Below are positions 59,546 through 61,995 of a DNA stretch of 64,000 bases, piece by piece. Below the pieces are notes generated by a model. The model worked only from the letters and a program-made list of their open reading frames with translations, did no database searches and had not been told where the DNA came from. This DNA is from Gayadomonas joobiniege G7 (GTDB lineage Bacteria; Pseudomonadota; Gammaproteobacteria; Enterobacterales; Alteromonadaceae): positions 248,001 to 312,000 of the forward strand of contig NZ_AMRX01000001.1 of NCBI RefSeq assembly GCF_000300815.1, read 5' to 3'. A program made the translations under genes and the position numbers. How positions within the stretch are numbered: the stretch's first letter is position 1; every line of letters begins with the position of its first letter.

Positions 59546-59582
59546 GGCTAACCCTAAGTGACGTCACTTTTAGGGGTTAGCC
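59546..59582 (+). promoter_or_regulatory. Long inverted repeat covering the ribosome-binding site of the RHH gene
   Basis: Left arm GGCTAACCCTAAGTGAC, right arm GTCACTTTTAGGGGTTAGCC; the centre GTGACGTCAC is a perfect palindrome and the outer nine bases of each arm also match, with small bulges between. It ends at the base before the ATG, and its right arm contains AGGGG, the only ribosome-binding site of the gene. It is not followed by T, so it is not a terminator. It could be an operator or partition site on DNA, and a site-hiding hairpin in RNA. Confidence 0.75.
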
Positions 59583-59762
59583 ATGCCAAAAACTAAAAAA
59601 GATAAAGAAAAAAAACAAAATAAAAAAAATACCTCATTACGGTTAGATGGCGACACTTTGCAGGCTCTTAAAGATAAAGCGGCGTCAGAAAATACTTCAG
59701 TGCAAAAAGTTCTGGAGCAATTGGTAACAGCCTACCTTCACAATAAAATTAAAATGGATTAA
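59583..59762 (+). CDS. Small ribbon-helix-helix protein with lysine-rich tail
   Basis: A 59-residue protein. Residues 1-16 are a disordered tail with eight lysines. Residues 17-56 read as a CopG/Arc-type ribbon-helix-helix unit: strand T-S-L-R-L (17-21), helix 1 (about 23-36), turn E-N-T-S, helix 2 (about 40-54). Such dimers bind inverted-repeat DNA, and one lies directly upstream. Small RHH proteins with a flexible basic N-terminus (ParG type) stimulate ParA ATPases, and a ParA gene is two genes downstream, so a ParA partner is my preferred reading. An antitoxin is less likely, since no toxin gene follows. Confidence 0.8.
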   Translation: MPKTKKDKEKKQNKKNTSLRLDGDTLQALKDKAASENTSVQKVLEQLVTAYLHNKIKMD

Positions 59763-59768
59763 TGTTTT

Positions 59769-61238
59769 ATGCGCTGGCTAATAAAAACCGACTCAGTCAT
59801 TCATTTTCTGCAAGAAACGCTTCAAAAATCAGCTAAACTTAGTGCCTTTAGGGCTGATTTAAACTCAGAAGAAAGCCATCAAATTAGCTTTTTTGATGAC
59901 TTTGAAGACCATATATTCAAACAAAAAGCCTGTTTGATTAAACAAGATGATAGCTTCTATTGGATAAGCCCAGAGCAAACACACCACTTGTTGCCGCAAC
60001 TCCCTAAATTTGCTCACCATATAGAGGATGAAGATATCGCTGAGCAACTAAATAAAGTGGTAGGTGCGCGCAAATTAGGATTACAAAAAAATATATTAGT
60101 GACTCGCCAACAGTGGGTTTTACGTGATAACGAAGGTAAAGTTATTTTAAGGCTCACCGCCACCTGCGACAGCCAACATTGTTTGTTAACTGCCACTGCA
60201 TTGCGTGGTTACGAAAAACAAGCACGCAGTTTCGCCAAACAAATGCCAACCGATAATGAGATCACTGAAATAGCACCCGATTATCATTTGTTATTGGCAC
60301 ACTCTGGTTTTACACCCACCACATATAGCTTGTCGCTTAAATTTAATCTGACTGCTGATATGCCGCCTGAACAAGCAGTACATCAATATGCCTATACCTA
60401 TTTTAATTTAGCTCGAGAGAATGAAGCCGGTATTTTAGCGCATAATGACGATATCGAATTTTTACATGACTACCGCGTTGCCATTCGTAAAATTCGAGGT
60501 CTAATAAGTTTATTTAAAAAGCAACTGCCAAAAACATTAATATCTGAGTTGCAACAAGAGCTCGCTTTTTTAGCTAAAAAAACCAACGAACTACGCGATC
60601 TTGATGTTTATCTGCATAACAAAAAGAGCTTTTTTAACCGATTAGACACTAATCACCAAAAAGGATTAGAGCAACTTTTTAGTGCGTTTGAAGCGCGTCA
60701 GCGGGGCTGCCGCCGTGAACTAAAAAGCTGGTTAAGCAGCCAAAACTATCAGCAAAAAGTTGATCACATATATCATTTAATCAGCTGTTTATTGCAAATT
60801 GACAGCCAACAGAGTATTCAACCCTGCTTGCAAAAACTATTACGTAAAAACTATAAAAAAGTCCTTGCTACCGGTCAATCTATTCATGCCAAGAGCCCTG
60901 ATGAAGAAGTTCATGAGTTACGTTTAAGCTGTAAAAAACTGCGCTATTTAACTGAATATATGCAGCAACTGCCAGCCGCTCAAGCTGCCAGTCAGATACA
61001 GAAAAAACTAAAAAAATTGCAAAATTCATTGGGTGATTTTAACGATAACTCAGTACAACAAAACAAGTTAAGACAATTTGCCGAAAATGCGCCCGCGACC
61101 GCTGCGCAAGCGGCCATCATGTTAGCCGAAACATATGCGAGCGAGCAAAAATCAGTTCGCAAAAAAATACAGAAACAATTTGCCGAGTTCGCCAAAGCCG
61201 ATACTCAACAACTGGTTAAACAACTTAGCCAGGCATAA
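59769..61238 (+). CDS. CYTH-like/CHAD domain protein
   Basis: A 489-residue cytosolic protein. Residues about 1-180 resemble a degenerate CYTH (triphosphate tunnel) domain, e.g. I-S-F-F-D-D-F-E near 39-46, but lack the usual N-terminal E-x-E-x-K. Residues about 195-480 form a CHAD domain with both basic repeats: H-D-Y-R-V-A-I-R-K-I-R (233-243) and H-E-L-R-L-S-C-K-K-L-R-Y (382-393), plus L-G-D-F-N-D. CHAD is an established polyphosphate-binding module. It starts 6 bases after the RHH stop with no good ribosome-binding site, which points to coupled translation, and is followed after 16 bases by ParA. Confidence 0.85.
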   Translation: MRWLIKTDSVIHFLQETLQKSAKLSAFRADLNSEESHQISFFDDFEDHIFKQKACLIKQDDSFYWISPEQTHHLLPQLPKFAHHIEDEDIAEQLNKVVGARKLGLQKNILVTRQQWVLRDNEGKVILRLTATCDSQHCLLTATALRGYEKQARSFAKQMPTDNEITEIAPDYHLLLAHSGFTPTTYSLSLKFNLTADMPPEQAVHQYAYTYFNLARENEAGILAHNDDIEFLHDYRVAIRKIRGLISLFKKQLPKTLISELQQELAFLAKKTNELRDLDVYLHNKKSFFNRLDTNHQKGLEQLFSAFEARQRGCRRELKSWLSSQNYQQKVDHIYHLISCLLQIDSQQSIQPCLQKLLRKNYKKVLATGQSIHAKSPDEEVHELRLSCKKLRYLTEYMQQLPAAQAASQIQKKLKKLQNSLGDFNDNSVQQNKLRQFAENAPATAAQAAIMLAETYASEQKSVRKKIQKQFAEFAKADTQQLVKQLSQA

Positions 61239-61254
61239 TCATTAAGGAGCTCAC

Positions 61255-61995
61255 GTGAAAACACTTGCTTGTTATAGTATGAAAGGCGGTGTCGGAAAAA
61301 CCGCTACTGCCGTTAATATTGCCTGGTTTGCAGCACGCGCAGGCTACAAAACCTTGTTAATTGACTTAGATCCGCAGGGTGCTTCATCTTTCTACTTTCG
61401 TGTTAAAAGCAAAAAAAAACCATGGGATGAAAAGTTTTTTCAGGATCATGAGTACTTGCTTAAACATATCAAAGAAGCCGATTACGAAAACCTTGATGTA
61501 CTGCCGGCACATTTTTCATTTCGCAACTTTGATATCAACCTTAGCGACATTAGTAAACCAGAAAAAGGATTAAAAAAGGTTCTAAAAGGTTTTAAATCTA
61601 GTTATGACCTCATCATATTAGATTGCCCGCCAACCATAAGTAACTTATCTGAGGCTGTGTTTTATACCAGTGATCTTGTATTAGTACCTGTTATTCCAAC
61701 CACCCTATCAGAGCGTACTCTAGATCAGCTGTACCAGTATTTTGACGAATATAAATTAAACACAGATAAAATCACCCCGTTTTTTTCTATGGTGCAAAAA
61801 CAAAAACATATGCATGCCGACAGCATAACCCGTTTAAAAGAGCGCTACAGCAGCTTTATTGATGTAACAATTCCGTTTGCGGCCGACCTAGAAAAAATGG
61901 GTGAACATCGCCAACCATTAGGTGAATTTGCCAGTGGTAAACCAGTTTTCACCCATGTACAGTCATTGTGGCAAGCGGTTCGTGAACGTTTATAA
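61255..61995 (+). CDS. ParA family ATPase
   Basis: A 246-residue P-loop ATPase of the ParA/MinD group. The deviant Walker A K-G-G-V-G-K-T is at 10-16 with signature Lys10 and Lys15; D-L-D-P-Q-G-A follows at 37-43 and Walker B I-L-D-C-P-P at 121-126. It lacks an N-terminal DNA-binding domain, so it is of the small type that includes Soj, ParF and cargo-positioning ParAs. The start is GTG with AAGGAG. No parB gene is adjacent; the small RHH protein is the likely partner. Chromosomal parAB is normally near gidB/mnmG, not here, so this is an additional ParA. Confidence 0.9.
   Translation: MKTLACYSMKGGVGKTATAVNIAWFAARAGYKTLLIDLDPQGASSFYFRVKSKKKPWDEKFFQDHEYLLKHIKEADYENLDVLPAHFSFRNFDINLSDISKPEKGLKKVLKGFKSSYDLIILDCPPTISNLSEAVFYTSDLVLVPVIPTTLSERTLDQLYQYFDEYKLNTDKITPFFSMVQKQKHMHADSITRLKERYSSFIDVTIPFAADLEKMGEHRQPLGEFASGKPVFTHVQSLWQAVRERL

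Follow-up and report, generated by a model that had tools for sequence, protein, structure and literature searches.

The Gayadomonas joobiniege G7 stretch analysed here (contig NZ_AMRX01000001.1, positions 248,001 to 312,000; 64,000 nucleotides, hereafter the window) carries three tightly packed genes, which encode a small ribbon-helix-helix (RHH) protein, a CHAD protein and a small ParA ATPase (Table 1). We propose that the last two form a two-gene operon for the ATP-driven positioning and sharing-out of polyphosphate granules, with CHAD as the cargo adaptor, a reading to which we give a probability of about 0.6 on the basis of comparative sequence analysis. The RHH gene is an accessory, and the conserved core is the CHAD-ParA pair. 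An earlier note on this DNA had described a tight three-gene cassette, and this description is exact: all three open reading frames (ORFs) lie as first noted, co-directional on the + strand, with intergenic gaps of 6 and 16 bases.

Bacteria commonly store polyphosphate in granules, whose placement and inheritance are non-random. According to a 2025 review, the proteins responsible for granule placement in Caulobacter have yet to be identified, and whether energy is used in granule localisation remains to be seen (PMC13052382). A conserved ATPase-adaptor pair represents a concrete candidate for polyphosphate granule positioning in culturable bacteria and, if the proposal is true, a storage granule joins the cargos of ParA-type ATPases. 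What is new is the predicted cargo and adaptor for ParA positioning; the gene neighbourhood itself is already known in Acidithiobacillus.

ParA was searched in 60 relatives, in 369 genomes of the window's class (taken as Gammaproteobacteria) and in 295 genomes of its order. The subfamily defined by the window ParA was present in 56 of the 369 class genomes, at a threshold of E <1e-28, and in 3 of the 295 order genomes, the window's genome being counted in both. A first locus set comprised 59 further ParA matches (L096-L154, two of them from one genome), and a second came from a ParA profile scan of species genomes, with 80 loci among the matches listed and the subfamily boundary set at L191. 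The resulting 96 subfamily loci (59 plus 37, the latter among the matches listed) may include species shared by the two sets. A CHAD gene lies directly upstream of parA in 45 of the 59 loci of the first set and, among the matches listed, in 18 of the 37 of the second, where the contig ends just upstream in 4. The overall count of 63 of 96 compares with none at the 116 loci that carry other ParAs (43 among the matches listed in the species scan and 73 from viral contigs), and the pairing is therefore more than chance. CHAD and ParA are co-directional in 63/63 pairs and overlap by 4 bases in 37; the gap is at most 50 bases in 61 of the 62 measurable pairs, the exception being L148 with 154. By record titles, the pair occurs in Gamma-, Beta- and Alphaproteobacteria, Actinomycetota, Planctomycetota, Lentisphaerota, Chlorobiaceae and Desulfobacterales; many of these records are metagenome assemblies, and single taxon placements may therefore be contaminated. 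The earlier note had asked whether the three genes stay together across Alteromonadales. What is kept, in many groups, is CHAD and ParA as a pair; the RHH gene is kept in a minority of lineages, and the window's order contributes just the three genomes with ParA given above.

The assignment of the third gene as a small ParA ATPase proved correct. Pfam places the protein in the ParA-type family AAA_31 (E 9.7e-38), and its predicted model, with a predicted local distance difference test (pLDDT) score of 92, adopts a Soj/ParA fold; Soj, ParA and McdA reach a template modelling (TM) score, by query, of 0.83-0.90. The fold matches rank Soj/ParA (E 4e-20 to 1e-17) before McdA (1.5e-14) and BcsQ (1.4e-13), with MinD also behind McdA. 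The deviant Walker A motif (KGGVGKT, K10-T16) and the Walker B residue D123 are invariant in 34/34 ParAs. In a tree of 131 ParAs, built by a quick method and with a narrow sample of outsiders, the subfamily was separated from the 30 other ParAs with a Shimodaira-Hasegawa-like approximate likelihood ratio test (SH-aLRT) value of 100. Among the 60 relatives, the window and the congener G002 (8e-122) match and the next best hit is at 2e-25, so that the subfamily is well separated. A viral or plasmid origin was considered and rejected: the 73 viral ParA loci show a best-segment identity of at most 33%, none of them with CHAD, and subfamily ParA is rare on plasmids, being found in 10 of 72,556 plasmid records (E <1e-30). 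On the conjugative plasmid pMAQU02 of Marinobacter nauticus (L311, 673-5747), a lone subfamily ParA lies near phbB, which encodes acetoacetyl-CoA reductase, and this could hint at a polyhydroxybutyrate cargo.

We then consider the CHAD protein, which the earlier note had called CYTH-like/CHAD. The CHAD domain (PF05235) is recognised by Pfam at E 8.5e-47 over residues 211-434, and the top fold match of the AlphaFold2 model (mean pLDDT 87) is the structure of Chlorobium CHAD (CtCHAD) in complex with polyphosphate, 6QVA (E 7e-14). The CYTH-like label fails as a sequence match, as Pfam found no CYTH in the window protein, and holds as a fold because the N-terminal half of the model (a domain at about residues 25-160) matches CYTH/TTM structures of the thiamine triphosphatase type (Foldseek about 1e-4, probability 1.00). 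In CtCHAD, mutation of the central residues H253, R256, R260, R296 and R418/Y419 weakens polyphosphate binding, and six distal residues, likewise mutated, have a milder effect (PMC6537752). All six central residues are retained in the window protein, as H233, R236, R240, R276, R392 and Y393; these positions are invariant in 18/18 aligned CHADs and retained in 41-45 of the 46 CHADs of another set, the window included. Five of the six distal residues are identical in the window, and R438 is replaced by K (alignment read by eye). In a Chlorobiaceae locus (L167), a close relative of the crystallised CtCHAD, at 461 bits, is encoded beside a subfamily ParA. From these residues we infer that the window CHAD would bind polyphosphate through its basic pore.

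ExExK is the catalytic motif of the TTM/CYTH triphosphatases of the YgiF type. YgiF, a TTM-CHAD triphosphatase, shares the CYTH/TTM plus CHAD architecture of the window protein and is an enzyme with this motif; unlike YgiF, 55 of 57 long ParA-linked CHADs have no ExExK in their first 120 residues, and it is likewise absent from the window CHAD protein. Among 22 long CHADs with no ParA next to them, 11 have the motif, the 40 unlinked CHADs having been picked from the stronger CHAD matches and four of them being second CHADs of genomes with ParA. The loss of ExExK in ParA-linked CHADs suggests an adaptor rather than an enzyme.

Genomes with the subfamily ParA carry ppk1 more often than those without it. 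In tests that ignore kinship, ppk1 was present in 52 of 56 class genomes with ParA versus 163 of 313 without (Fisher p 9e-10), and CHAD in 50 of 56 versus 70 of 313 (Fisher p 6e-22); the four ParA-bearing genomes without ppk1 have PPK2. Within the fetched flanks, whose lengths differ, ppk1 occurs at 8 of 96 subfamily loci and SixA-like phosphatase genes near 18 of 96, compared with 0 of 43 other-ParA loci for both; two of the 18 SixA-like genes (L184 and L186) we take to be probably phosphoglycerate mutase. At L137 (2741-5759), which has no CHAD, ppk1 stands directly upstream of a subfamily parA and ends within 12 bases of its ORF, which links this ParA to polyphosphate in a second way. Pfam analysis of 220 neighbour proteins, counted without a control set, gave among the 25 commonest families of each listing His_Phos_1 (10), CYTH (8), ppk1 (4), PPK2 (at least 2) and PhoU (at least 2). 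On the Paracoccus plasmid pCP157_03, pstA-pstB-phoU-phoB lie upstream of the trio and CYTH-NUDIX-CYTH right downstream of parA (L308, 6768-8249), and may extend the operon by the processing of polyphosphate or nucleotides. Conservation, the retained residues and the ppk1/SixA neighbourhood support the view, already put forward in the earlier note, of CHAD as a likely cargo adaptor with a link to polyphosphate.

In the mechanism that we propose, CHAD would sit on the granule via its basic polyphosphate-binding pore, and the CYTH-like domain without ExExK may act as a docking surface. ParA, to judge by its family, would bind to the nucleoid in its ATP-bound, dimeric form; granules coated with CHAD would stimulate its ATP hydrolysis and so pull on it, in the manner of McdAB-type systems. 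Where an RHH protein has been added, in a minority of lineages that includes the window's, it may bind the palindrome TGACGTCA ahead of the RHH gene and thereby control the operon, as their co-occurrence suggests; less securely, its lysine-rich tail could contact ParA as that of ParG does. The full composite claim, namely a multi-phylum, so far unrecognised ATP-driven polyphosphate-granule positioner whose CYTH-CHAD adaptor usually lacks the catalytic motif and whose RHH protein, in some lineages, autoregulates at TGACGTCA and supplies a ParA-activating basic tail, is put forward tentatively, at slightly less than even odds.

Several observations weigh against granule positioning by this pair. 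It is patchy within the genus, where 2 of 8 genomes have it, the window included. No CHAD adjoins 33 of the 96 subfamily loci (in 4 of these the contig stops short), and among the 56 ParA-bearing class genomes 6 lack any CHAD match; ParA can therefore exist without CHAD. The co-occurrence tests treat genomes as independent of phylogeny, and among genomes with CHAD ppk1 is about equally common with ParA (47 of 50) and without it (62 of 70), so that CHAD may be the source of the ppk1 signal. Loss of the catalytic motif is not universal, as the CHAD of L188 has ExExK, and the CYTH-CHAD protein encoded adjacent to parA in Acidithiobacillus is stated to have a well-conserved CYTH active site and has been proposed to act as an adenylate cyclase (PMC6416229). 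A further weak point is the lack of a basic CHAD N-terminus in RHH-less loci (net charge over 30 residues, on average +0.28), because known partners of ParA-type ATPases use a positively charged, disordered N-terminus (PMC10241942, PMC12204374). Six RHH tails have net charges of +1 to +6, and in the window the RHH tail would fit the basic-partner role better than CHAD. A basic motif at the CHAD C-terminus was considered as a ParA-activating peptide (31 of 64 linked versus 5 of 40 unlinked CHADs by a rough pattern; net-charge p 0.012); it is a weak candidate and is not claimed.

The same neighbourhoods could instead mean that ParA regulates polyphosphate metabolism or signalling and not granule position, acting as an ATPase switch complexed with CHAD, Ppk and SixA in the way that BcsQ assists cellulose synthesis. 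The presence of ppk1 immediately ahead of parA at L137 and within the flanks at 8/96 loci, the SixA-like genes near 18/96, the occurrence of ParA without CHAD and the presence of BcsQ among the family and fold matches of the window ParA all agree with such a switch, as does the published reading of the Acidithiobacillus neighbourhood as a cAMP/polyphosphate signalling operon with a cyclase role for CYTH-CHAD (PMC6416229). However, the Soj/ParA (4e-20 to 1e-17) and McdA (1.5e-14) folds are better matches than BcsQ (1.4e-13), and of the 57 long ParA-linked CHADs 55 have lost ExExK. We regard a purely regulatory ParA as unlikely.

Plasmid partition by ParF-ParG employs a small ParA and an RHH protein with a basic tail, and the cassette might accordingly be read as a DNA partition system of this type, in which RHH would occupy a centromere, ParA segregate DNA and CHAD be a passenger or a polyphosphate-DNA link. 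The lysine-rich tail of RHH, a weak ParG match of a Paracoccus RHH homologue (0.0033), the co-occurrence of RHH with an upstream palindrome and the six copies on Paracoccus plasmids are consistent with it. Yet 58 of 63 CHAD-ParA loci lack RHH, CHAD and not RHH is the constant neighbour, and a count of exact sites shows no repeated centromere: there is one TGACGTCA per operon within 400 bases, and the genome-wide number (32) is not above the 38 of a reversed control. Unlike ParF-ParG, moreover, the CHAD gene lies in between, the RHH gene comes first and is dispensable, the palindrome is single and the constant pair is CHAD-ParA. We regard DNA partition as improbable. The pair might also have a role in metal stress or in organising the nucleoid, its ligand being soluble polyphosphate rather than granules. 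Such a function draws on the link between CHAD proteins and copper resistance (PMC10892726), but the same paper reports no copper genes in the Acidithiobacillus neighbourhood, and CHAD proteins localise to polyphosphate granules in other bacteria (PMC9239181, PMC6537752); we consider it improbable.

Granule positioning by CHAD-ParA must also be set beside published work. A 2019 paper drew parA in the operon of the Acidithiobacillus CYTH-CHAD protein, with a reading in terms of cyclic AMP (cAMP) signalling and a loose tie to cell division functions (PMC6416229), and a 2024 paper on copper reported folD, ppk, parA and CHAD as highly conserved in Acidithiobacillus (PMC10892726); a word search of the latter found neither 'positioning' nor 'segregation'. 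As in our loci, CHAD and parA are conserved together, with ppk1. The published neighbourhood concerns one genus, is read as cAMP signalling or copper resistance, and has its ParA labelled a plasmid/chromosome partition protein; matched by this description, Acidithiobacillus and the window probably have the same gene pair. The remark in the earlier note that its author knew of no described system with this set accordingly has to be qualified: the CHAD-parA-ppk neighbourhood has been published for Acidithiobacillus (PMC6416229, PMC10892726), with no positioning proposal in the available text of these papers. In searches of the open literature, we found no paper proposing granule positioning for CHAD-ParA or reporting the pair beyond Acidithiobacillus.

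Among known positioning systems, McdA-McdB of carboxysomes has the gene of the cargo-binding partner adjoining the ParA gene. It resembles the pair described here in its nucleoid-type ParA, McdA being among the good fold matches of the window ParA, and differs in that our adaptor is CHAD and not McdB, that the predicted cargo is polyphosphate and that, on average, the CHAD N-terminus lacks a basic character where RHH is absent. AlgP of Pseudomonas aeruginosa affects the even spacing of polyphosphate granules, as is predicted here, but is a histone H1-like DNA-binding protein, and no ATPase partner is described for it in the available text (PMC9239181). CtCHAD (6QVA), whose central polyphosphate residues are retained in the window, and PptA (6RN5) have the same CHAD fold as the window protein; a whole-word search found no mention of ParA in PMC6537752 (CtCHAD) or PMC8003754 (PptA).

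The first gene of the cassette shows a far narrower distribution. Its N-terminal tail of 15 residues is lysine-rich with a net charge of +6, and the protein scores under the Pfam cut-offs for RHH-type families (best BrnA_antitoxin 0.00019; RHH_1 0.012), while its homologues in L097 and L098 reach 25.8 and 21.2 bits against an RHH_1 cut-off of 20.5, in agreement with the original description of an RHH protein with a lysine-rich tail. Ten loci have an intact RHH gene ahead of CHAD: the window, L097, L098, L157 and six Paracoccus plasmids, including L354, whose sequence has one ambiguous base. A tblastn search with the window RHH against the 72,556 plasmid records returned exactly the six Paracoccus records; in Paracoccus marcusii strain KGP, the trio is on two different plasmids (L354 and L356). 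Remnants precede an intact CHAD-ParA in Nitrosomonas europaea (L156, hidden Markov model E 6e-5) and Ruegeria (L182, by eye). Neither gene nor remnant was found in 58 of the 63 CHAD-ParA pairs, the same-genus L096 among them, which does not support a general role for RHH in activating the ATPase or anchoring DNA.

Within 400 bases upstream of CHAD, TGACGTCA was found in 11 of the 12 loci with RHH or a remnant, all 10 intact ones included, and in none of the 58 loci without RHH, although at 5 of these the upstream sequence is shorter than 400 bases; the twelve are a non-independent sample, six being Paracoccus. The palindrome is retained at the Nitrosomonas europaea remnant locus and lost at that of Ruegeria. 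This co-occurrence suggests that TGACGTCA is a predicted RHH operator through which RHH autoregulates the operon, and a second, ParG-like role is possible. A chromosomal centromere array for RHH was not supported, as the window genome has 32 exact TGACGTCA sites, one of them at this operon, which is not above the 38 of the reversed control. The ParA tree places seven rows with RHH or a remnant together in a single clade (99); the window falls separately, beside the RHH-less congener L096. Folded as RNA, the inverted repeat before the RHH start gives -23.7 kcal/mol (z -4.3), and such a hairpin (59546-59582) could hide the RHH start codon together with its ribosome-binding site. With z between -0.65 and -2.8 at five other RHH loci, the strong hairpin is seen in the window alone of the six folded; it was dropped as a general feature and retained as a local one. 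A candidate Pho box upstream of RHH (10 of 14 positions of CTGTCAT-N4-CTGTCAT) was discarded, since the 64-kb window holds 50 matches as good or better on both strands. An RHH-type toxin-antitoxin system was likewise rejected: no toxin gene is paired with RHH, and its partner genes are CHAD and then ParA.

Table 1 Features of the RHH-CHAD-ParA cassette in the window
Feature	Position	Strand	Description
Palindrome TGACGTCA, candidate RHH operator	59559..59566	+	Upstream of 10/10 intact RHH genes found
Inverted repeat of 37 bases	59546..59582	+	Contains TGACGTCA; abuts RHH start codon
RHH gene	59583..59762	+	59 aa; lysine-rich N-terminal tail, then ribbon-helix-helix; accessory gene
CHAD gene	59769..61238	+	489 aa; N-terminal CYTH/TTM-like domain without ExExK and C-terminal CHAD domain, predicted to bind polyphosphate
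CHAD domain	60399..61070	+	Residues 211-434; H233, R236, R240, R276, R392, Y393
AAGGAG, likely ribosome-binding site of parA	61244..61249	+	In the 16-base gap; read by eye
parA	61255..61995	+	246 aa; GTG start; KGGVGKT signature; D123; query defining the CHAD-linked ParA subfamily

The trio is flanked by genes that we take to be lysA and recG, named from their ORF translations. In the congener G002, roughly 9 kb separate CHAD-ParA from recG, with both on the same strand, and 20 bases upstream of the pair is an ORF of 1130 aa (L096, 6741-10133) that by eye appears to encode a hybrid histidine kinase. A similar-looking kinase, also recognised by eye, adjoins recG in G003 and G006.

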